DNA from: a virus
Length of the DNA stretch: 64,000 nt
Reading direction: 5' to 3' (one strand)
Virus record (IMG/VR): IMGVR_UViG_3300037346_000668
Location: 18,936 to 82,935 of that record
Part shown: piece after piece, positions 2,322-63,626 of the stretch
Layout of the letters: each line of letters begins with the position of its first letter
Numbering within the stretch: position 1 is the stretch's first letter
Position numbers and translations under genes: made by a program
The notes under the pieces: model-generated
Told to the model about the DNA's origin: nothing
Database searches by the model: none
What the model saw: only the letters and a program-made list of their open reading frames with translations

Positions 2322-3728
2322 TTAATTTTTCTCTTTCTGTAATACCTTTTTCAAACCATCTATTTCTAGCTCCAATTCAAGCATTTTATCCTTGGTTTTT
2401 CTTCTTCTTGCATACAGATCCTTAATTATTATCTTAAGTATTGGGTTTTCATCATCATTACCAAAATAAGCTCCAGATGCACACTTAATCCAATTTTCCT
2501 TGGGGTTCAGTAGATTCTTTCCCTTATATGATTCAGGGGAAATCCCCCACTGAACCATTGCGTTAGGATACAGAGAAGCAAAATCATAACATGCTACCCA
2601 ACCATGTAGACCCTTTATGGGATCCTTAACATACCCACCAGCAAATTTGACATGTACTTCCTCCTTTCTCTCCGCAGTAAGAACCTGTTTTCTATCTAGA
2701 AATTTCTTCATCATAAGAACTTCTGTTGACCAAACGGGTGAAAGACATCTGTTTATTTCAACACCAGATATCATGGCAATCTTGAAGAAGGTTTGCATAG
2801 TTTTAAGCTTTTGATCTATATAGTGAACAAGAGCACAATCGACAGCATTATAATAGATAAAATCTTCGAAGTTGGATTGATATAAATCTCTAAGAGTTCC
2901 GTCGTAAGCAATCTTTTTAAACCCAACAGCTTTATCAGCAACATAATCAAGTCTATTACTTTCCTTAATCTTTATAACCCGATCCCACTTTTTATAAATC
3001 TCCAAGTAATCAAACATTAATAAATGTTGAGGTAATTGGCCTTTACCAATCAGTGTTCTTCCTGGAGATATAATTTTGGGATCTATACCAAGTCTTTTAG
3101 CCCTATTCAGGAGATATGGCCAGTCGTATCCTAACCAGTTCCATCCAGTCATTGTTGCCATTTTCGGGCCAAGTTCACGGAAGAAAGTGTACATCATATC
3201 ATATTCGGTTTCGAATTGCTTATACTTAAAGCTCCACTCATCACCGGTTTTTTCGAAGTATTTGTTTATCTTATTAAATATACTTCCCTGCTGTTCTGGA
3301 GTTAGTGGATCTAAACCAAGAATCAATAATTTTCTTTTGTCCGTACCAATCCCTATGGATAGTACACGGTTTTTTGCATTTTCTGTATCAAGTGATGCAG
3401 CCTTATCCTCAGTTATCTCAACCTCTATATCGACAAAGTATTTCTTTGGCTCCTGGTACTCCCATAATGGCTTTGTTAATTCATCAGGAGCTTCCATTAA
3501 AATCTGAGCCATTCTATATTTGTCATATCTCTCGGATTTTACTTTCTTAACAGGTTCTCCCTTCCAGTTTGTCCATTCTTTATCCCTCTTAGGATCTCCT
3601 GGGTTGCACCTTTCCCAATTGAATCTTTCGCTCTCCAGTATGGGCACATGTAGAAATGCAAGTTCTCCCTCAGGACCAAAGTGAGATACGTTTAAGTAGC
3701 TTCCCTTATTCTCTATATCAATAATCAT
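2322..3728 (-). CDS. Family-B DNA polymerase, N-terminal half (exonuclease plus start of palm); split gene
   Basis: The 468-aa N-terminal part of a T4 gp43-like replicative polymerase. The 3'-5' exonuclease is complete: Exo I FVDIEVE (D100, E102), Exo II NWLGYDWPY (N197, D202), Exo III YNAVDCALVHYID (Y293, D297). Polymerase motif A is present at YDFASLYPNA (D382). The protein then runs into the fingers helix (DLYARRRKTKDKM) and stops. Motif B (K-x3-NSxYG) and motif C (DTDS) are absent; a full-length homologue is about 900 aa. The 100 bases downstream and the next gene (dUTPase) hold no remainder, so the C-terminal half must lie elsewhere. Split gene 43 is known in some T4-related phages. The start codon chosen (MIIDIENKGSYLNVSHFG) matches the family N-terminus. 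Confidence 0.93.
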   Translation of the reverse strand: MIIDIENKGSYLNVSHFGPEGELAFLHVPILESERFNWERCNPGDPKRDKEWTNWKGEPVKKVKSERYDKYRMAQILMEAPDELTKPLWEYQEPKKYFVDIEVEITEDKAASLDTENAKNRVLSIGIGTDKRKLLILGLDPLTPEQQGSIFNKINKYFEKTGDEWSFKYKQFETEYDMMYTFFRELGPKMATMTGWNWLGYDWPYLLNRAKRLGIDPKIISPGRTLIGKGQLPQHLLMFDYLEIYKKWDRVIKIKESNRLDYVADKAVGFKKIAYDGTLRDLYQSNFEDFIYYNAVDCALVHYIDQKLKTMQTFFKIAMISGVEINRCLSPVWSTEVLMMKKFLDRKQVLTAERKEEVHVKFAGGYVKDPIKGLHGWVACYDFASLYPNAMVQWGISPESYKGKNLLNPKENWIKCASGAYFGNDDENPILKIIIKDLYARRRKTKDKMLELELEIDGLKKVLQKEKN

Positions 3729-50231: not shown

Positions 50232-53200
50232 TTAAGTTATCTGTATAGCATATCCAAGTTGAGCATTAGGTGAAGTTACATTAATAGTAGCAGTATATTT
50301 ACCAGAACCAAAAGTAAAATTGACTGGGCCTGCTATAGATCCAGCAGTTAATCTTGCTTGTCTGGATGTAGTTATCCCACTTCCTGGTGTAAATTCTATC
50401 CTAAATGTACCGGTCCTAGGTGGACTAAATGTATTATTCATAGGTAGTGTTGCAAAAGTATTGTTAGGTATAGATGCATATCCAGTAAAAAAATCATTAT
50501 AAGGTACGCTATTTATAAATATATTCCAGGTACCAGCTATTAATGAACCACTTTGATTAGACACACTAAATGTTCCATAAGGATTAGCAGTTGTTGTAGT
50601 GGTTGTACTTGTACTTGTTGTTGTACTCGTTGTTGTAGTTGGTGGTACATAAACCACTGCACTACCACCAGGTAAGCTACAATCAAACGGTGAGAATGTC
50701 GTAGTTGTTGTAGTTGTAGTAGTAGGAGCTAATGTTGTTGTAGTTGTCGTACTTGTTGTACTCGTTGTTGTACTCGTTGTTGTTGTTGTGCTAGTTGTTG
50801 TTGTACTAGTTGTTGTTGTAACAGGAGCACCACCAGTATACCCGAATTCAGGCAAAAGAAGTCCACTTCCACCGATCAATGAAGGTGGTGGATAGTATGG
50901 ACCATTAACTAAACCAATGCTGCCAACATCAACATTTATAGGTCCAGTTGTTGTTAATAATGAACCAGAATCATCAGGAATCACTCTATAATAAAAATTT
51001 GTTATGTTGGAATCGCCATTATTTAATTGTTCTGCTGCTCCTGAAAGTGTCAATTGATTATTAAAAGGACCTGTAACACCATAAAAAACAAGAGTACTTG
51101 GAAATGGATACGTTTCATTTCCTGTTGAGATTGATAGGTTATCAAATGTAAGAAGCGAATGCAATTCATATCCACCGAGCCAATCGTTATTGAATTCGTA
51201 ATCATACCATGAATGTGCATACCCATCATCCCATGTGCTTTCATTGAATATTTGCCAATTTAATCTTTTGGTTCCCCAGTATTTTAAATTAGGGTTAGGA
51301 TAATTTTTCATTTCCTCCTCCCAATAAACATAATAATCCATAGGATTAACCCCACCAGTTAATGACGGAGTAACAAATAACAAATCTATAGACCCGCTTT
51401 CTTCCGCTCTTAGCTCAATACCATTTTGATCAGCACCAAGTTCACTAGGTGCATATATTGTAATTGTCACAGGATCAGCCTGTGGATTTTCACAGGAAGC
51501 AAAATAATCAGGATATGTTCTAAGTGAATTCACAGAGGACGTTATCTCATTTGCAGTATTATATAAGCTATCGCCAGTCTGACTATATCCTATTAATCTA
51601 TTGTTAACATAGATTGATAGACTTCCTCCTCCCAGAACCCTCTGTGAGTTATATATAGATGTATTAACATAGAGTTTTTTAGGGGATAGCATTTGAAGCA
51701 GAATCCCACCCCATAAAAATTCAAGGGTAATTGGTATATTGAATGAATAAGAATCTATAATTGTTGCTGGCCATCTACCATTAATCTGAGGTATACTACC
51801 AGTTATTGTTACATAATCATCATCACTAAGATCATGAAGACCTGTTGTAGTGATCACAGAATATCCATACTGACCACTAATCCCTGCAATTTCAAAAGAT
51901 TCAACGCTTGCAATATTAAGGGTTATTTGGGTAATTGTTATATCACCATATGCACCAACCGATGACTCTGTTGTTCTAACATAAAGATCCTGGCCGTCGT
52001 CAGCCTTATTTCCATAAGTTGCAAAGTCTAGTATCTCCGAAGGTATTGTTTTTTTGACTTCATCCACGGTTGAACCTTCGGAAGGATACTCCCATATGGA
52101 ATCATACTCCTTCCATTCCCTATCAACATTCTCCCATAAATAATTCTCAACCTCTCTATATCTAGTCCAGGAATCGATATCCACGGTTTTAGGGTCGACA
52201 AATATAGAAGAATTCTTAATAACGCTGGTCTTTGCATTAAAGGCATCATACGTGTTACATATGACCTGATATTCTCCAGTGTAAGGTAAGAAGTGCGCTA
52301 GCTTATAATAGTCCACTATGGATCCTCTAAATTCGAAATGATAAGGTGTACCCGGTTGAGTTGCTGACTTATTTAGAATCCACTCAATTTCCATCATGTT
52401 AGAGAAATCAATATTTTTCCAATTCAGCATCGTATAATTCTGTGCAGTGGAAAAAATCTCATTCTCACCAAAGGTTCCACTAGTTGAATTATCTAATGCA
52501 ACATCATATTCACCGCTACTATAATAAACAGCAGTAACAGTACCAAATACACCGCTAGACTTAACTTTAACCCTATCACCAGGTCTATATGTAGGTATTA
52601 ATAACGCATCCCAGTTTATATTTAATTCGTTCCATTCCCATCTATCGGCAGAGATTTCAAGTATCACTGGCATACCAACTGGAGTATTATACATTTTTCC
52701 TGTTACAGGATCCGTATATGCGGGAGGATCAAATCTACCATCGCCAAGTTCGGCGATCTTTCCGTTCTGTTTAAGATCATAAAAATTACCAATAGCAGTC
52801 AATAATGAATTATTCTGTGCTGGTGTATAGATTTGTTGGGAATCCAATGGATTTATTATATTACCAAGATCTGATAACGTAGATGAAATTATTTCTATGG
52901 TGCCTGATAGCAAAGATGGATTATAATTGGAATAATAATGTATTACACCAGATGCTTCAGGAGCTATATACCATTCCAGTGAATTCCCACCAGTTGCCCC
53001 ATTATTAATTATTCCAGTTGGTACATTGCTTACCCACTGAAAGGAATTGCCACTTGGAAATCCGGGGAAAGAGGTAATAGAAAGATCAATTCCATATCCG
53101 GAAGGATCGTTGACGCTAAAGACATATTTTTTTCCTGCCTCTAACCTTAAAATTGGGTTATTCCCAGTAATTCCGTATGGTATATCACCAACAAATTTAA

Positions 53201-55043
53201 CGGCACTCCCAGTACCACCAGGAAAGGTAACATTCAGAGAATATGAATTGTTATAAGAACTAGGTGTCTGTATATAATTAGGATTTGGTCTTATATTGAA
53301 ATTTCTAAGATCCTCTATAAATCCAAAATCTGGATTGGGGAAAAATCCAAAATCATATCCTATGTTTATATCAGATCTAATCATCTGATCAGTCCATGAC
53401 CTGGTATTCTGGATCATAAAATAAACACCCTCACCTGTTATATCTATTATTCTTGCATTTAGAGGAAGATAATCCCTCTTAAGTCTCTCCTTTAATGCAA
53501 ATATTTTTATAAGGACCTCCTCCTGTGTAAACTTAAATGCATCAACAACCACTGGATATCCGTATTCATCAGTGTCATTGGTAGTCTTATTCAAATCATA
53601 ATAAAGACCAAATAATGATGTTTTCTTTATAGTTTTACTAGGAAGCTGTGAATTTTCAGATGTTACGTTAAGAACATAATTTCCCTTATTATCAGGTCCA
53701 TATGTCTGCGTAAGTTTATATTTTCCAGAATTCTCGTTATCCAAAACGTCACCAATATTATAAGACTGCGAATATCCATTGGCAGCTTGCTGAGTTTTTA
53801 TTTTATTAAGAAATGTCTGGTTTTGTTGTAGCGGAGATTCTAATTTTAAATTCTTATAATTCAGATTAAGCCAATACTCCTTTATTCTCATGTCCTGGTA
53901 ACCGAAGAACTTAAGTGCATTAATAAGACCCTTATAACTACCTATATAAGGAAATATATCATCACCAGCTATAAGTAGTTCTTTTCTTTTCTCGTTAATT
54001 TCAAGAAAGTTAGGAACAGGCTCAGCAGGATCATGGTCCCTCAATATTATCGAATCAGTATTATAGAATGATCTTCCAATATTTTCAAGTAGTACCTTAA
54101 ATCTTTCATCCTCTGCTATAGTTTGACCATAGAAATCTATTTCTATAACTTTTTGTGGTGTCCCTGTGGTTATATCTTCAACTATAAGTTTTCTCTCATA
54201 AACATTCTCAAGTTCAGCCGATGAGTTTAACGCAACATTTATTGCTATTGCGTCAGAAGTTACATTATTACTAACAATCAATCCATGGTCATAATAATCA
54301 GTTACATCCGAATCAACGGGAATAAGTATATTTGGATAGCTAACTATTAAAGGCTGACCGTCCCCTCCACTTAACTGATCCTCTATAACATACGTAAATA
54401 TAATTTCAGATACATCTACCTCCCCATAATTATCATTATACCATCTAGTTCTCCATTTTGCACCGGTGGAACCTATATTAGATGTATGCGGTAAACCATA
54501 TTCAAGCCCACCAGTAGTTACAAATTCCTGTACTACGAAAACCTGCTCATTCTCATAAAGACCAGTAGATATAGGATCAAAGTAAATATTACCTTTAAAA
54601 TAACCACCAGGTCTATTATCATAACTAGTTTCAAAATATACATTAGTGTCATAGCTTATTATACTTTGACCAAGAAAATTACTCTTGGGAAGGGTAAGCG
54701 AAAATGTCGAACCTATATTATATACCAGAGATATTTTACCCTTAAAATTGGTATTAGCTGTTGGAATATAACCATTAAGGTAAACAGTTGCACCTTTATC
54801 TATGAAATCATTTACCTCTATACACCAGGTATAAAGATTAGTACTAGTCGCATCCGATATATTGAAGGTAAGAATATAATCATCATTAGATTCTATCCAT
54901 TCAAAATATCCAGGGATATTAGCGGAATTACTCATTATATACGAGGATCTAACATCAAGGGGAGTTGGTCCCGTTGGTCCTATATAATCGAAATTTAATG
55001 GATTACCACTTTTATTATAAAAATTGAGATTTAGATTTGTCAT
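50232..55043 (-). CDS. Giant baseplate-wedge-position protein (gp7-like position) with poly-Thr tail
   Basis: A 1603-aa protein directly downstream of the gp6- and gp25-like genes, where T4 has gp7. The middle contains FPYIGSYKGLINALKFFGYQDMRI, typical of baseplate/tail-protein attachment regions of contractile phages. A Tudor/KOW-like segment YRPGDRVKVKSSGVFGTVTAVYY lies near residue ~830. The C-terminal 150 residues alternate Thr-rich linkers (TTTTSTTTTSTTTTT, APTTTTTTTTT) with small domains, ending in a domain with SGSLIAGTWNIFINS. It is far longer than T4 gp7 (1032 aa); homology to gp7 is positional, not proven. It may carry a fibre or adhesin extension. Confidence 0.6.
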   Translation of the reverse strand: MTNLNLNFYNKSGNPLNFDYIGPTGPTPLDVRSSYIMSNSANIPGYFEWIESNDDYILTFNISDATSTNLYTWCIEVNDFIDKGATVYLNGYIPTANTNFKGKISLVYNIGSTFSLTLPKSNFLGQSIISYDTNVYFETSYDNRPGGYFKGNIYFDPISTGLYENEQVFVVQEFVTTGGLEYGLPHTSNIGSTGAKWRTRWYNDNYGEVDVSEIIFTYVIEDQLSGGDGQPLIVSYPNILIPVDSDVTDYYDHGLIVSNNVTSDAIAINVALNSSAELENVYERKLIVEDITTGTPQKVIEIDFYGQTIAEDERFKVLLENIGRSFYNTDSIILRDHDPAEPVPNFLEINEKRKELLIAGDDIFPYIGSYKGLINALKFFGYQDMRIKEYWLNLNYKNLKLESPLQQNQTFLNKIKTQQAANGYSQSYNIGDVLDNENSGKYKLTQTYGPDNKGNYVLNVTSENSQLPSKTIKKTSLFGLYYDLNKTTNDTDEYGYPVVVDAFKFTQEEVLIKIFALKERLKRDYLPLNARIIDITGEGVYFMIQNTRSWTDQMIRSDINIGYDFGFFPNPDFGFIEDLRNFNIRPNPNYIQTPSSYNNSYSLNVTFPGGTGSAVKFVGDIPYGITGNNPILRLEAGKKYVFSVNDPSGYGIDLSITSFPGFPSGNSFQWVSNVPTGIINNGATGGNSLEWYIAPEASGVIHYYSNYNPSLLSGTIEIISSTLSDLGNIINPLDSQQIYTPAQNNSLLTAIGNFYDLKQNGKIAELGDGRFDPPAYTDPVTGKMYNTPVGMPVILEISADRWEWNELNINWDALLIPTYRPGDRVKVKSSGVFGTVTAVYYSSGEYDVALDNSTSGTFGENEIFSTAQNYTMLNWKNIDFSNMMEIEWILNKSATQPGTPYHFEFRGSIVDYYKLAHFLPYTGEYQVICNTYDAFNAKTSVIKNSSIFVDPKTVDIDSWTRYREVENYLWENVDREWKEYDSIWEYPSEGSTVDEVKKTIPSEILDFATYGNKADDGQDLYVRTTESSVGAYGDITITQITLNIASVESFEIAGISGQYGYSVITTTGLHDLSDDDYVTITGSIPQINGRWPATIIDSYSFNIPITLEFLWGGILLQMLSPKKLYVNTSIYNSQRVLGGGSLSIYVNNRLIGYSQTGDSLYNTANEITSSVNSLRTYPDYFASCENPQADPVTITIYAPSELGADQNGIELRAEESGSIDLLFVTPSLTGGVNPMDYYVYWEEEMKNYPNPNLKYWGTKRLNWQIFNESTWDDGYAHSWYDYEFNNDWLGGYELHSLLTFDNLSISTGNETYPFPSTLVFYGVTGPFNNQLTLSGAAEQLNNGDSNITNFYYRVIPDDSGSLLTTTGPINVDVGSIGLVNGPYYPPPSLIGGSGLLLPEFGYTGGAPVTTTTSTTTTSTTTTTSTTTSTTSTTTTTTLAPTTTTTTTTTFSPFDCSLPGGSAVVYVPPTTTTSTTTSTSTTTTTTANPYGTFSVSNQSGSLIAGTWNIFINSVPYNDFFTGYASIPNNTFATLPMNNTFSPPRTGTFRIEFTPGSGITTSRQARLTAGSIAGPVNFTFGSGKYTATINVTSPNAQLGYAIQIT
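50587..50840 (-). repeat. Imperfect triplet repeats encoding poly-Thr/Ser
   Basis: Two clusters (50587-50643 and 50699-50820) of GTT/GTA/GTC triplets on the plus strand, read as ACN threonine codons on the minus strand with occasional Ser. Length changes by slippage stay in frame. A shorter cluster is at 49954-49996 in the next gene. This is a coding repeat, not a CRISPR. Confidence 0.75.
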
Positions 55044-55585: not shown

Positions 55586-57310
55586 TTATTTATTTTGTGC
55601 TGCTAATTGACTCTTAAGTTCGGTCGTTAGTCCGCTTCTAAAATTTCTAGGAACTATGGAGGAAACTGTTATATTAAGGGGTCCAGGTTTACCTGCTACT
55701 ATACTATCAGTAAAGAATGTTCCATTCCTATCCGACCATCCGCCTCTAAGTATAACAAGCTCATTTCTTCCTATTAATATATCACCAAAATTATCCATTC
55801 CTATAACCTCAGAGTATTGTGAATCACTAACGTTAGAAAGATCCTTTATTAACAACTGATTTGCCTCATTTTTTTGTCCAATAAAAAATAAAGAAACTGA
55901 ATCAACACCTTCTATACCCTCGACTATTGCTATAAGATCAGATTTTGGAATTTTATCTCTTCTTTTATTATTTAACATATAATCAGAAAATCTCTTTCTG
56001 ATTGTTTGCTTTATTGTCTCAGGATCATTTCCCTCAAAGATCGATATCACTACATTAACAACATATTTAGCTATAATAGGCTCGACTATTTTAACAACAG
56101 TAGTAGCTATCATTGATCCAGAGTCCTGTATAAGATTTATTATTTTTGTTTTTTGCTGAATAGTTAAAAGAAAATCTGCATCAGGTACACTAAAATAATC
56201 CTCATTTGTTGTAAGATTTAATGTTATATCAGGAACTAGGTAGAGATATACTATATTATCGTCATCCAAATAATCATCATCAAAAGTTGAAAATGCTTGT
56301 ATTTGTGAGAACACGCCGAATTTACTTAGAAATATCTCATAATTTTCAGGATTTGCAAATACAAAAGATCTACTTGTCTTTGGAGCAATCAATCTTATAA
56401 GAGCTATACTTTCCGGATTCGTACCAAATGTTGGATCTATATTATTTTTAATGTCTATATAAAGATTCAAATCAACCTCACCACCAAAAAGATCAGTACC
56501 AGTTGTTACAAATTTATACGTAAGTGGGGTTTCTTTTGTTGAATTCGTATTTCCACTTATACCACTAGTTTGTAAATATTCTATTCTTATCACAGATCCA
56601 CTAGGAGGAACCATACCGAAATTTGAATTACCAAAATAAAGATCTATACCCTCCTGTATACCACTTCTAACAAGGTAACCCTTACCATTTAATGGAATAT
56701 CATAAAGCGAATCATATCTTTTCCATTTTTCCTCATTTACATAAACATCAATATAGAATTGATCTATAAAAGCTCCTGATGTGGATGGAAGATTATAACT
56801 CTGAAGAGCTATACCAGTTCCAGTAACGGTAGCGGTCTCAAAATTTCCCTGGACTAGCTTAGTAGCTATTGAATTTCCTCTTACCAATGGCATAGTAACT
56901 TCATTGCTTCCAAATCTAAGAGAATAGATTTTACCATTCTGTAAACACCTTATCTGCGAATTATTCTTTATTATAACAGCACCGCCAGAAACGTCACCTT
57001 CCCTAGTATTCCATGAGATAGAAACCTCACCCTGAGCTGCTGATGCTCTTCCGGGATCATAGCCTGCAATTCTGGCTAAACTTCTTACAGAATAGTCCCT
57101 TGTTGCTTCCTGCATATTTAATTCTGTTATGGAATCCTCTATAAAATAGAGTATAAGCTGGGAAAGGTTTTGTAAAACGAAAAGTATTTGTCCCCATGCA
57201 GAGGCAACAGTAAAAACATTTGCTGTTTGGTTATACGTGGTTTGAAGAAAAGAAAAGGTATCACCCAATAATCCATCAATAAGTATATTATTTTTTTTAA
57301 ATATATTCAT
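55586..57310 (-). CDS. 6: Baseplate wedge protein, gp6/J-like
   Basis: A 574-aa protein of the baseplate J/gp6 group, which forms the wedge ring around the hub. N-terminal helices (SWGQILFVLQNLSQLILYF, then NMQEATRDYSVRSLARIAGYDPGRASAA) lead into the typical beta domain. Later IVAIVEGIEGVDSVSLFFIG-type sequence (DLIAIVEGIEGVDSV) is the hallmark of the J-like C-terminal half, in the context of a long helix with KQTIRKRFSDYM. It is followed by gp25, as in T4-type baseplates. T4 gp6 is 660 aa, so size is comparable. Confidence 0.85.
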   Translation of the reverse strand: MNIFKKNNILIDGLLGDTFSFLQTTYNQTANVFTVASAWGQILFVLQNLSQLILYFIEDSITELNMQEATRDYSVRSLARIAGYDPGRASAAQGEVSISWNTREGDVSGGAVIIKNNSQIRCLQNGKIYSLRFGSNEVTMPLVRGNSIATKLVQGNFETATVTGTGIALQSYNLPSTSGAFIDQFYIDVYVNEEKWKRYDSLYDIPLNGKGYLVRSGIQEGIDLYFGNSNFGMVPPSGSVIRIEYLQTSGISGNTNSTKETPLTYKFVTTGTDLFGGEVDLNLYIDIKNNIDPTFGTNPESIALIRLIAPKTSRSFVFANPENYEIFLSKFGVFSQIQAFSTFDDDYLDDDNIVYLYLVPDITLNLTTNEDYFSVPDADFLLTIQQKTKIINLIQDSGSMIATTVVKIVEPIIAKYVVNVVISIFEGNDPETIKQTIRKRFSDYMLNNKRRDKIPKSDLIAIVEGIEGVDSVSLFFIGQKNEANQLLIKDLSNVSDSQYSEVIGMDNFGDILIGRNELVILRGGWSDRNGTFFTDSIVAGKPGPLNITVSSIVPRNFRSGLTTELKSQLAAQNK

Positions 57311-57319
57311 TTCTTTTTG

Positions 57320-57691
57320 TTATGTTAATTTTAGTGTCACTAATGGACTTAGTCCACTATCAGATTGTATATTAAAATCAAGTGTTGCTACATCTCTTTG
57401 GGTACCAACATAAAATTTCAATTCGTAAGTTCCACCTAATGCTGCAAAAAGAGGAACATAGACCTTAAGATTAAGATCAAGTTCCTTTTTTATACTATAT
57501 TCGGAAAGCTCTAAATTGAAAATAAGATCCTCTAAATTTAAACCAAATTTAGGATCACCTAATACTTCACCCTTATTAGTAAGGAGTAGCATTTTAAGTT
57601 GACCGGTACAGATCTCTATTGGATCTGATACCTCTAATTGGTAAGGATTGTACTTTGGATCATTTGGATCTCTATTATAAATTTCTCTCAT
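57320..57691 (-). CDS. 25: Baseplate wedge protein gp25-like
   Basis: A 123-aa protein of the gp25/TssE-type family, which starts sheath polymerisation on the baseplate. The key stretch is LKMLLLTNKGEVLGDPKFGLNLEDLIFNLE, matching gp25 (L-L-x-T-x-x-G-E-x-x-x-x-P-x-F-G). The usual E-P-R is altered here. The length is near T4 gp25 (132 aa). The ATG sits just after a perfect 16-bp palindrome and 15-30 bases downstream of a TTGATATATA element. Confidence 0.9.
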   Translation of the reverse strand: MREIYNRDPNDPKYNPYQLEVSDPIEICTGQLKMLLLTNKGEVLGDPKFGLNLEDLIFNLELSEYSIKKELDLNLKVYVPLFAALGGTYELKFYVGTQRDVATLDFNIQSDSGLSPLVTLKLT

Positions 57692-57760: not shown

Positions 57761-58540
57761 TTAATTCCACTGAAGAAAATAAGAAGGAGTATTTTCTCCA
57801 TTAATCATATCCATGACCTCCTGTAACTCTGTATTACCCTGTGTTCCTATCTCAGAAGCGTTTATAGTAACACCACCAGGAAGATTATAGGTGAACACAC
57901 TAAGCATCTGCGAAAGCGCTATTTTGGATTTAGCTATGCAATATCTTACAAAAAGTTCATCGTCAAAAAGATATTCATCGGGAATAGCTACGTGACATCT
58001 AACAGAAACATCCATACCGCCAGCTCCAAATCCCTGAGCGAGTTGACCACCCTTACCCGATCTATTTGGATCTCTACCTAGTATAGTTAGTGCTTTTGTG
58101 TTTTTATTATATTTGTATGCAAAAGTATTTAACATGTATGCTTTTGCAAGATCGAAATATGAATACATAACAGTTCTATAAACCATATTATCTCCCATAA
58201 AAGGAGAAAGTAATAATTCAGAACCAAGTAATTTTGAATCACCGAAATCCCTATCAGGCGTACCCGATAGTCCAGATCCTCCAAGTTCTCTAACCTCGTA
58301 AACTCCAATTATAGATGGTGGAAGAACTATTTGTCTAGTTCTTTTAAATTCAGGATGTGCAAATATGGTATTTGTTATAACAAAAACTCTATCTTCTACA
58401 GCATACTGATAATTATCATAAAACCAAGCCTTGGCTCTTTTTATAATTCTTTCCATTTCTGTTGCATTCAAGCTATATGGTAATGCACAACTAAAATTTA
58501 ATGCATCTCCAATTTCTTGTACTAGTTCGTCTTGTGTCAT
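57761..58540 (-). CDS. Conserved virion/neck-type protein, function unresolved
   Basis: A 259-aa protein starting MTQDELVQEIGDALNFSCALPYSL. The N-terminal helices (EMERIIKRAKAWFYDNYQYAVEDR) and following strand (RQIVLPPSIIGVYEVRELGG) with a G-S-G-L-S-G-T-P loop resemble tail-connector or head-completion proteins of large contractile phages. The C-terminal half has DVSVRCHVAIPDEYLFDDELFV and LSQMLSVFTYNLPGGVTINASE. I could not match it to a named T4 protein. It is 16 bases from the upstream amidoligase gene and 70 bases upstream of gp25. Confidence 0.55.
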   Translation of the reverse strand: MTQDELVQEIGDALNFSCALPYSLNATEMERIIKRAKAWFYDNYQYAVEDRVFVITNTIFAHPEFKRTRQIVLPPSIIGVYEVRELGGSGLSGTPDRDFGDSKLLGSELLLSPFMGDNMVYRTVMYSYFDLAKAYMLNTFAYKYNKNTKALTILGRDPNRSGKGGQLAQGFGAGGMDVSVRCHVAIPDEYLFDDELFVRYCIAKSKIALSQMLSVFTYNLPGGVTINASEIGTQGNTELQEVMDMINGENTPSYFLQWN

Positions 58541-58555
58541 GTTAGGTTTTTATTT

Positions 58556-59962
58556 TTAGTAGTTCATATTTCCAAATTTAGAACCACCATATTGATCATT
58601 AAGATTCTTAAGTCTGCTATCGGTAACAAATCTAGTCATTCTAACATCCTCTGGAGCTTTTACTTTCATAGTTTCTTTACTTACATCAGAATTATCACCA
58701 AGTATTCCACCCCTAAAAACACCGCCGACTATCTTACAGTTTATGTTCTTATTCTCACAATCTATAAAACAATCCTTAAGCTCGTTGCCATAATCAACTA
58801 TAGTAGCTTTTATTTTGGATGAGATTATTTTAGTACCTCCAAAGATGAAAGAATCTTCAACACATGATTTTTTTATAGAACAGTTATAAATATTACAATC
58901 TCTGACTGTTGCATTTTTTATGTCACATAATATAAGATCAACCCCGCTTATTTCGAATGCTCCTCTACTTCTGGCTTCCTTAACCTGACATCTACCAGTC
59001 GTAGTATCATAGTTAAAATAACATGAAGTTATATTACCATCAACTATAAGATCAAATATCTTATCTCTTATGGAGAAAAAGTAGGTTTTAACATTTTCGT
59101 CCCATCCTTTAAGATCTATAAAAATATGAAAGTCCGGGTAATTTCTAAAAAATATATCAGGATCGCTGAAAGATCTAACAACTTTAGAATATTTATTCAT
59201 CATCATCTGAAGAGTAGCAAGATCCTGCTTGTTATATCCGGAGATTCTTCCACTTAACATATCATAAAGATAAAGAATAATATAATCAATTATCTCTCTT
59301 ATATCCTTAATTTTTTTCTGATAATCTCTATTACCAAGATATCTGAATTCTATATAGCCTTTTGGTATTTTAGTAAAATTTACTCCATAGTACTTATCCT
59401 CAGGAACTTTGTACATTTTTGGGTCTATGGTAGTAATATTTTCAAGTATGGAGAATCTATTTCTAGGTAGTACCTTTTTAACAGATTTAGCATAGACGTT
59501 CTTTTCCCTGGAGCCAAACTTAGAATATATTAGGCCCTCGTCCAGACCTAATACAAACTTAAGTTTATCTATTGTCTCAATTTTATGCTTTACGTCTCTT
59601 CTGTTTTTATCGAAGCTGACTGAAAACTGGAATGCACATCTATCATTAGTCCATCCGTTTTCGTCTATCCATTTTAATATCTTTATTAAAATTGGAATTG
59701 CCTCCATGTATGGAAGTGGTCCAGTAATAAGTTCAACCATCTTATTGCCACCAGAATAATCTGGCTCCAACTTGAAGTTGTTTGCGTCTACTGGAGTTTT
59801 TGAGTGATATTTTTCAGAAACTATAACTTTTTTTTTGACAAGCTGGGATAATGCTTTAGCAGCCTTACCTTTTAAAAGGTCGGTATAAAATTCAAATTCA
59901 AATCCTATTACGGAGGAACTGAGTGCATTAAGCTTGTCAAAATGTGTTCTATTATCCGGCAT
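58556..59962 (-). CDS. Amidoligase-like protein with C-terminal beta-helix
   Basis: A 468-aa protein. Residues ~15-260 resemble the amidoligase (glutamine-synthetase/GCS-like COOH-NH2 ligase) fold: GFEFEFYTD with E22 and E24, then KLEPDYSGGNKMVELITGP (the D-x-S and V-E-L-x-x-x-P signatures), then a region where family members have the C-G-x-H-V-H-V strand but here reads CAFQFSVSFD (histidines missing), then YGVNFTKIPKGYIEFRYLG (the V-N-x..I-E-F-R motif). Residues ~310-430 are a Cys-rich right-handed beta-helix (LILCDIKNATVRDCNIYNCS). Amidoligases form peptide-like bonds and can modify proteins or build metabolites. Location inside the baseplate operon suggests action on virion proteins. Loss of the H-x-H strand leaves activity open. 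Confidence 0.7.
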   Translation of the reverse strand: MPDNRTHFDKLNALSSSVIGFEFEFYTDLLKGKAAKALSQLVKKKVIVSEKYHSKTPVDANNFKLEPDYSGGNKMVELITGPLPYMEAIPILIKILKWIDENGWTNDRCAFQFSVSFDKNRRDVKHKIETIDKLKFVLGLDEGLIYSKFGSREKNVYAKSVKKVLPRNRFSILENITTIDPKMYKVPEDKYYGVNFTKIPKGYIEFRYLGNRDYQKKIKDIREIIDYIILYLYDMLSGRISGYNKQDLATLQMMMNKYSKVVRSFSDPDIFFRNYPDFHIFIDLKGWDENVKTYFFSIRDKIFDLIVDGNITSCYFNYDTTTGRCQVKEARSRGAFEISGVDLILCDIKNATVRDCNIYNCSIKKSCVEDSFIFGGTKIISSKIKATIVDYGNELKDCFIDCENKNINCKIVGGVFRGGILGDNSDVSKETMKVKAPEDVRMTRFVTDSRLKNLNDQYGGSKFGNMNY

Positions 59963-61112
59963 CTACTACTTTAACGAATATTTTTCCCGAGATCGTTTCA
60001 ACCTCGTAGACAATAACAGTAACATCGTCTCCGACTCTTATGTTATTTCCTTTCTTACCCAGTTTATCCTGGGGAATTAATGCTAAAAGTCCAAGACCCT
60101 GTATTTCTACCAAAGCACCATTTTTCCTTTTATGTTTAACCTTTGCTTCCATAGGTTCAACTGTTCCGTCATTTACCTGCGATTCCAGATCTTGTATAAT
60201 AACATTTCTCTCCAATGGCTGATCCAAGGTAAGTGTCAATCTATTATTGTCCTTTATCTCCTTAACATAGAATTCTATTTCTATTCCTGGCGAAAGAGCA
60301 GCTAAACTATTACCTTCAGCAAATTCAGTTTTATGTATAAGACCAGTGTAAATATCATCCCATTCGACAAAAACCCCAAAATCGCTTTTTCCTGTAACAT
60401 ATCCCTTATATTTTTTAGTAAGATCAAGCTCCTGTATTTTAGAATCCATGATCCTATTAAGATACTTTTTATACGAAACGATAAAGATATCTTTGGCTTC
60501 CACATATCCTTCAATCATAACATGCATTTCCTTACCTATATAAGATTCAAAATCCGTTATCTTATTTGCAGCTGCTAATGATCCAGGCATAAAACATTTA
60601 ATACCAGATAATTCAGCAATATAACCGCCCTTATTAATACTAATAATCTTAACAAGATAGGCATTGCTTTCCTTCTTAATTTGCTCAAATAACTCAACTC
60701 TAAGACTCTGTATATAGTATTCAATTATGGAACCGGAGTAGCTTCCATTCATTTTTCTAACTCTAGCCTTAAGCTCCTCTCCCGGATAAAAACCTATCCC
60801 AGTTATATTCAATTTTTCTGCATCTCTTCTTTCCCTTTTGAGATCGATATAGATTGTTTGACCAGAATCAGTTTGAGCTAAAGCTTCATCAGCTTTAACA
60901 CTTATGATCGTACATGTATAAACTCCTCCATCAGAAAGATCCTTCGATCCGCCCTCAAACTTGTCATTACTTGCAAAATAGAGTTCCGCTAGCTCCTCAG
61001 CGTAAGGTTCGTGGCAATATATTTTAGATCCTGCCGGGGATTTGACTTTAGAATTGATAGATAAACCGTTAGGTAAGTCCCATTCAAAATTTTCTAAGTA
61101 ATCGAGATTCAT
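59952..61112 (-). CDS. S1-domain protein (ribosomal protein S1-like), four repeats
   Basis: A 386-aa RNA-binding protein with four S1 (OB-fold) repeats, at ~62-125, ~148-215, ~231-300 and ~318-386. The third is clearest: KGYVTGKSDFGVFVEWDDIYTGLIHKTEF, then GIEIEFYVKEIKDNNRLTLTL. The others: VYTCTIISVKADEALAQTDSG; AYLVKIISINKGGYIAELSG with CFMPGSL; and AKVKHKRKNGALVEIQGLGLLALIP. S1 binds A/U-rich mRNA leaders and brings them to the ribosome, which suits a phage with A-rich, Shine-Dalgarno-free leaders. Its 3' end overlaps the amidoligase start by 11 bases. A GATATATA element is about 40 bases upstream. Confidence 0.85.
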   Translation of the reverse strand: MNLDYLENFEWDLPNGLSINSKVKSPAGSKIYCHEPYAEELAELYFASNDKFEGGSKDLSDGGVYTCTIISVKADEALAQTDSGQTIYIDLKRERRDAEKLNITGIGFYPGEELKARVRKMNGSYSGSIIEYYIQSLRVELFEQIKKESNAYLVKIISINKGGYIAELSGIKCFMPGSLAAANKITDFESYIGKEMHVMIEGYVEAKDIFIVSYKKYLNRIMDSKIQELDLTKKYKGYVTGKSDFGVFVEWDDIYTGLIHKTEFAEGNSLAALSPGIEIEFYVKEIKDNNRLTLTLDQPLERNVIIQDLESQVNDGTVEPMEAKVKHKRKNGALVEIQGLGLLALIPQDKLGKKGNNIRVGDDVTVIVYEVETISGKIFVKVVDAG

Positions 61113-62948: not shown

Positions 62949-63626
62949 TTATTTAGTTTTGGATACTTGACTTAGATGCTGTTGATCAGTCATCGGTACA
63001 ATTGGTGTTCCTGATGGGCCAACACCGGTTGGATGCGTATGTGAATTAAAATATGTTAGAAATGTGCTACCTTTGACCAATTTTTCCACCGCACCTTCAC
63101 CAAGCTCGATATTATTACATTTAACTATGACTTTACTCTGCTCCATTCTTATTTCATCTTCACCCATTTTAACAAGTATTCGAAGTTCGCCACCATTTTG
63201 TGTATCTAATTGGACCTTAGCATCGCCCAAAGATATAACGAGCCCGTTTTTTCTGGTGTATATTATCTTTAGAGTTCCAGGTAATGCCTCTCCATCATAA
63301 AGTAAAGCTTGTGTTCCCTCGTACGAATTTTCTTCTTGCAGCTCTCTAGTAAGATCTGGTGATTGCTCCTTGATATAATCGTAAGTTATCTTATAGTAAT
63401 TCTCCTCTTCAAAATGTACAGAAACAACAGATCCTAATCTGGGAATAGATATATTACCACCACCAAATTCGGAGCCAAAAGACAATCCAGAATTTTGCTC
63501 CGCCCATGGTATATTTTCAACAGCAAGGTCATCAAACAATCCGAAAACCGCAACCCTTGCTCTTCCTTGTTTAAGAGGATCGTTAATATCTACTATTTCA
63601 CCAAGGTATGTTTTTTCACTAGGCAT
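62949..63626 (-). CDS. 5: Baseplate hub protein, gp5-like OB-fold/spike, without lysozyme domain
   Basis: A 225-aa protein. The N-terminal OB-fold matches the gp5/VgrG-type entry: YLGEIVDINDPLKQGRARVAVFGLF, then PWAEQNSGLSFGSEFGGG and SIPRLGSVVSVHFEEEN. After ~110 residues comes a beta-prism-like part (LKIIYTRKNGLVISLGDAKV, MEQSKVIVKCNNIELGEGAVEKLV) and a PAAR-tip-like ending HTHPTGVGPSGTPIV. T4 gp5 (575 aa) has a lysozyme domain between OB and spike; none is here. Central baseplate puncturing device. Gene start is three bases from the previous gene's stop. Confidence 0.85.
   Translation of the reverse strand: MPSEKTYLGEIVDINDPLKQGRARVAVFGLFDDLAVENIPWAEQNSGLSFGSEFGGGNISIPRLGSVVSVHFEEENYYKITYDYIKEQSPDLTRELQEENSYEGTQALLYDGEALPGTLKIIYTRKNGLVISLGDAKVQLDTQNGGELRILVKMGEDEIRMEQSKVIVKCNNIELGEGAVEKLVKGSTFLTYFNSHTHPTGVGPSGTPIVPMTDQQHLSQVSKTK

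Follow-up and report, generated by a model that had tools for sequence, protein, structure and literature searches.

A predicted amidoligase-fold protein with a pentapeptide-repeat-like beta-helix is encoded beside baseplate genes in huge phages

Introduction

What does an amidoligase-like protein do among the baseplate genes of a huge phage? We addressed this question for a 468-aa coding sequence (58556..59962, minus strand, ATG start) in a 64,000-nucleotide stretch of viral DNA, hereafter the window, which comes from a virus fragment of 82.9 kb recorded in IMG/VR. The predicted product joins an amidoligase domain to a pentapeptide-repeat-like beta-helix and a disordered tail. The amidoligase fold and class are already known in phages, and Iyer et al. 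2009 is said to be the founding amidoligase paper. Our literature search returned no paper on a huge-phage amidoligase that is fused to a beta-helix and tied to baseplate genes. If the protein is active, these phages would perform ATP-dependent covalent protein modification within virion assembly; if it is dead, it would plainly exemplify how an amide ligase can be taken over for a structural role.

Conservation and distribution of the gene

We compared the 468-aa ORF with its three closest relatives (L001-L003, 91-94% identical) and obtained a dN/dS of ~0.03, a value that is approximate because synonymous sites are near saturation. This value points to strong purifying selection on a genuine gene. 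It contains the motifs quoted in the first-pass annotation, namely GFEFEF (residues 20-25), MVELITGP (75-82), QFSVSF (112-117), YYGVNF (191-196) and YIEFRYLG (203-210).

Two contigs, 430 and 434 kb long, carry close relatives, and a scan with the family alignment detected relatives in at least 459 IMG/VR stretches. The same kind of protein was present in full length in six INPHARED records of uncultured huge phages (462-735 kb), two of which are identical in length and match. Full-length genes occurred in genomes of 634-735 kb that correspond in length to the four largest curated ones of the survey by Al-Shayeb et al. (634, 636, 642 and 735 kb; Mahaphage clade, predicted Bacteroidetes hosts; PMC7162821). 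The full-length gene has thus been retained across highly divergent huge phages. Among isolated phages, the enzyme domain only was found, in Agrobacterium phage Atu_ph07 and, weakly, in Salicola phage SCTP-2. When genomes of 84,980 bacterial and archaeal species were scanned, no relative was confirmed.

The N-terminal domain is predicted to have an amidoligase fold

From an alignment of 64 sequences, AlphaFold produced a model of the window protein with a pLDDT of 86.2 and a pTM of 0.79. Residues ~17-310 (59033..59914, minus strand; pLDDT mostly 77-98) are modelled with the glutamine synthetase/gamma-GCS/amidoligase fold, including the amidoligase barrel, together with C-terminal helices. Foldseek matched the model to dozens of viral models named 'Amidoligase enzyme' (E 1e-13 to 1e-4). 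In the PDB, the best match was glutamine synthetase (4e-4), with gamma-glutamylcysteine synthetase further down (4e-3); whole-chain TM-scores to the PDB matches were low because the core alone is common to them. These best PDB fold matches, glutamine synthetase and the E. coli gamma-glutamylcysteine synthetase (PDB 8fbp, 1v4g), differ from the window protein in their accessory domains and free amino-acid substrates, and are only ~10% identical to it.

At the sequence level, the window protein scored 19.2 bits (E=0.0012) against Pfam Amidoligase_2 (PF12224), which is just below the gathering score of 22. It matched no family in a PHROGs search and nothing among the PDB sequences in a phmmer search. 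Window-clade relatives from two ~430 kb genomes scored above the PF12224 cut-off (26.1 and 24.8 bits). The family profile also found AUZ94978 of phage Atu_ph07 (500 aa; E 5.6e-20), which is named 'Amidoligase enzyme' in UniProt (A0A2L0UZM1) and itself exceeds the cut-off with 30.2 bits. AUZ94978 shares the amidoligase domain with its GxExE, DxS, E, HxN, R..N, Y..N and ExR motifs; unlike the window protein, it has a long insert in its N-terminal part, lacks the beta-helix and retains the His. We also aligned the family profile by hhalign with a profile of ten LUZ24-type phage amidoligases (PF12224; LUZ24 gp18, phage tf amidoligase). The match (E 9.6e-6, probability 83%) covered residues 58-230 and paired the DxS, E, HxH, R, Y..N and ExR motifs. 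LUZ24-type proteins thus resemble the window protein in fold and motif order, but they are distant, carry HxH instead of QxS and lack the beta-helix.

Because the window protein alone falls below the Pfam cut-off, one could suspect a chance or low-complexity likeness in an ordinary tail beta-helix protein. This is highly improbable, as it is refuted by the confident model, the structural matches, the profile-profile alignment spanning the motifs and the relatives above the cut-off. On the same grounds, including the score of AUZ94978, homology to Amidoligase_2 is secure. Profile comparison with LUZ24-type amidoligases and the Foldseek match to gamma-GCS therefore bear out the amidoligase fold proposed in the first-pass annotation. 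As the best explanation of the model and the sequence comparisons, the window protein would belong to an offshoot, specific to huge phages, of the Amidoligase_2 branch within the glutamine synthetase/gamma-GCS fold.

The C-terminal part is predicted to be a pentapeptide-repeat-type beta-helix

The model continues with a right-handed beta-helix (residues 324-385) and a capping beta-hairpin (394-421), together encoded at 58700..58993 (minus strand), and is disordered past residue ~437. DSSP placed strands at residues 324, 331, 337, 341, 347, 352, 357, 362, 367, 372, 378 and 383 of the AlphaFold model. The modelled helix is right-handed and repeats its strands at five-residue spacing, as in the pentapeptide-repeat (Rfr) fold. 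Pfam Pentapeptide_4 (PF13599) was matched by 53 of 64 relatives, the window protein not being among them, and when PDB sequences were searched with a profile, the helix stretch matched pentapeptide-repeat proteins, AlbG, MfpA and Qnr among them. Repeat pitch and helix type are as in these proteins; in the window protein, by contrast, the array is short and fused to an enzyme fold.

The Cys-rich right-handed beta-helix described earlier was thus recovered and refined to the pentapeptide type, with nine Cys within residues 314-434. Two of these positions are widely conserved (C346 in 141/146 and C356 in 138/146 sequences), and R417 and G422 at the helix end are each found in 145/146. The entire architecture was matched by A0A6J5PQ40, an unnamed BFVD entry with no assigned function from an uncultured Caudovirales phage; across 439 residues the TM-scores were 0.82/0.87, at 27% identity.

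Active-site motifs are retained except on the HxH strand

We counted motif conservation over 146 family sequences. E22 and E24 of the GxExE motif (GFEFEF, residues 20-25; 59888..59905) and D68 and S70 of the DxS motif (EPDYSGG, 66-72; 59747..59767) were present in all 145 sequences that cover them, and E77 (VELITGP, 76-82; 59717..59737) in 146/146. In R152-x-x-N155-x-Y157 (59492..59509), Arg and Tyr were found in 146/146 sequences and Asn in 145/146. Y191 and N195 (KYYGVN, 190-195; 59378..59395) as well as E205 and R207 of the ExR motif (EFRY, 205-208; 59339..59350) were invariant in all 146; all of these motifs lie on the minus strand. E142, like R152, was also kept in essentially all 146 sequences. 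LUZ24-type proteins conserve GxExE, DxS, E, HxH, E, R, Y..N and ExR, and the huge-phage family has all of them at corresponding positions with the exception of the HxH strand. In this comparison, E22/E24 were equated by motif order and the Atu_ph07 alignment, and the motifs from DxS onward were aligned directly by hhalign.

The exceptional strand is CAFQFSVSF (residues 109-117; 59612..59638, minus strand), which reads HxH in LUZ24-type proteins, HxN elsewhere in the family and Q112-x-S114 here. The first-pass annotation had stated that the usual His-x-His is replaced by QFSVSF. The window protein does have Gln-x-Ser in place of the His-x-His of PF12224, but the wider family already departs from the latter: HxN occurs in 91/146 sequences and also in Atu_ph07. 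His-x-His is therefore typical of PF12224 and not strict, as Atu_ph07 exceeds the cut-off with HxN, and only the first step, from His to Gln, is special to the window clade. In this clade the second position is mostly Ser (overall, Q in 55/146 and S in 52/146). The His on this strand is, we assume, the one that serves as a second-metal ligand in glutamine synthetase and gamma-GCS.

The maximum-likelihood tree required two His-to-Gln changes, as L096 acquired its Gln separately from the window clade. A single origin of Gln112 was rejected by an AU test (p-AU 0.00025) in which the motif columns were taken out and the long-branch rows Atu_ph07 and L067 omitted. L096 itself still sits on a long branch, so that the rejection is good but not absolute. 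With this reservation, His-to-Gln arose at least twice and constitutes a natural test of the role of that His in the fold.

A loss of the presumed metal-ligand His raises the possibility that an ancestral amidoligase became catalytically inactive and was turned into a structural or scaffolding component for the tail or baseplate, possibly still binding nucleotide or metal. We consider this doubtful, though it is the main contender. It would agree with the His-to-Gln change in two independent lineages, with the fusion to a repeat rod of a type that usually serves binding and with the tight linkage to virion genes described below. Most relatives, however, keep the His, and none of the 53 Gln-clade sequences deviates at the acidic, Arg or Asn/Tyr motif positions. 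All 12 motif residues outside the HxH strand are unchanged in these 53 sequences, which by random draw from the domain (109 invariant columns within 310 residues) would occur with a chance of ~2e-6. Such constraint on the active site speaks against mere decay of the enzyme, yet not against retained ligand binding.

The gene adjoins baseplate genes in several arrangements

The baseplate-operon setting noted earlier was found again; the genes given below with coordinates are on the minus strand. Upstream, an S1-domain gene (386 aa; 59952..61112; PF00575, E 7.7e-12) overlaps the start of the amidoligase gene by 11 bp, and the two adjoin in almost all window-clade loci. Past it lie a 583-aa gene and then a gene for a gp5-like baseplate hub OB-fold protein (62949..63626; phrog_430, E 1.8e-12). 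Downstream, a 259-aa gene that is weakly head-tail adaptor Ad2-like (57761..58540; phrog_211, E 5e-4; distant homologue in L070, 1.6e-10) is followed by genes for a gp25-like (57320..57691; phrog_261, E 2.6e-4) and a gp6-like baseplate wedge protein (55586..57310; phrog_219, E 4.4e-34). The order gp5 - 583 - S1 - amidoligase - Ad2-like - gp25 - gp6 - 176 - 1603 is stable in the window clade. Outgroup L064 retains the order gp5, S1, amidoligase, Ad2. The 1603-aa baseplate-side protein (50232-55043, minus strand) has long Thr/Ser low-complexity stretches (TTTSTTT) near its C-terminus.

In other lineages, the amidoligase gene has been relocated and lies beside a module that contains homologues of the window-clade genes of 618, 197 and 512 aa (E 3.9e-33, 1.9e-19 and 1.8e-46, respectively). 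The 197-aa gene matches PHROGs of baseplate wedge and tail-sheath proteins. We also tried to match the 130, 625 and 160 aa neighbours of distant lineages to the gp25, gp6 and 176 aa genes of the window, which failed. The 625 and 160 aa neighbours and an adjacent tail-protein family instead correspond to the upstream window-clade genes of 618, 197 and 512 aa; the predicted structure of the 625 aa neighbour (pLDDT 45) was too poor for use.

We then counted recognised tail or baseplate families in the 58 representatives with at least 4 kb of flank on each side. Of these, 52 had such a family no more than 6 kb from the amidoligase gene, as did 42 of the 48 outside the window clade; the link was missing in six of the 58, the 735 kb phage among them. 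The 52 cases are not independent events because of shared ancestry, yet several arrangements vary in order and strand.

Atu_ph07 is the nearest isolate. With its GenBank order calibrated against three landmark genes, those for the portal (gp198), the prohead core (gp204) and the major capsid protein (gp215), AUZ94978 is gp196; it lies close to the portal gene among virion genes. The virion proteins of Atu_ph07 identified by mass spectrometry are mostly encoded in three clusters, one of which, CDS 170-215, includes the position of gp196 (PMC6102473).

Possible functions

The fold, the motif constraint and the genomic linkage together favour an ATP-dependent amide-forming enzyme that acts in or on the tail or baseplate. 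For such an enzyme, with a part in virion morphogenesis, a beta-helix that directs it to its target and an altered metal site in the window clade, the sequence and model evidence leaves us at about an even chance. We infer catalysis, acyl-phosphate chemistry, a docking role and a virion substrate as follows. A late-expressed, ATP- and metal-dependent enzyme would activate a carboxylate as an acyl phosphate and then join it to an amine, during assembly of the tail or baseplate or on the assembled structure. The pentapeptide-type beta-helix would be a rigid arm that docks the enzyme onto a partner polypeptide, most likely one of the virion. In the window clade, the change of the metal-ligand His to Gln would have altered the metal site, with the remaining active site retained.

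A stronger version of this proposal is a virion-embedded, ATP-driven protein ligase that forms isopeptide or terminal amide bonds on tail or baseplate proteins in assembly, the His-to-Gln variant having a distinct metal or substrate preference. We regard this version as distinctly unlikely.

An active amidoligase could also modify a host component, such as a translation or transcription factor or the peptidoglycan stem peptide, or a small molecule; its site among tail genes would then reflect late expression or virion delivery. LUZ24-type amidoligase genes lie outside structural regions; instead of tail genes, their neighbours are genes for a glutamine amidotransferase, ATP-grasp proteins and a COOH-NH2 ligase. 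Some members of the present family are away from recognised tail genes, and an asparagine-synthetase-like enzyme is encoded ~17 kb upstream in window-clade phages. Nearness to the same hub and wedge genes nevertheless survives several rearrangements, and the LUZ24-type partners PF14395 and gamma-glutamyl cyclotransferase were not found in window-clade records. PF14395 had no match in ten huge-phage records, a weak result since the controls were silent too, and gamma-glutamyl cyclotransferase (GGCT/GGACT) was detected in three of the ten, none of them in the window clade. A host or small-molecule target thus appears unlikely, and the virion-associated amide-forming enzyme remains our preferred reading.

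The asparagine-synthetase-like enzyme (G001; L184:5512-6918; 468 aa) is encoded in a late gene region and matches Asn_synthase (E 4.7e-39) as well as a class II GATase domain; the latter match was also obtained in three relatives of ~320-434 kb. As a partner of the window protein it was considered but set aside, since it is 17 kb distant and has no recognisable similarity to the LUZ24 amidotransferase.

Further observations at these loci

Gamma-glutamylamine cyclotransferase-like genes (L177, L178, L179, L180) in three other huge phages of the family, all outside the window clade, were not close to the amidoligase gene. Two loci have one more ORF between the Ad2-like and gp25-like genes (L001:8263-9594, minus strand, 443 aa; L038:6839-8044, plus strand, 401 aa); both ORFs belong to one protein cluster (cluster 6) and are possibly a mobile or homing element. 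In 32/73 representatives, a 571-aa family that is weakly DHH phosphoesterase-like (cluster 3; L109:7383-8843 and relatives) was encoded, on either strand, no more than 6 kb from the amidoligase gene. Elsewhere in the window, a family B DNA polymerase ORF (2322-3728, minus strand) encodes 468 aa only, comprising the exonuclease and the start of the polymerase domain; this polymerase may be split or interrupted.
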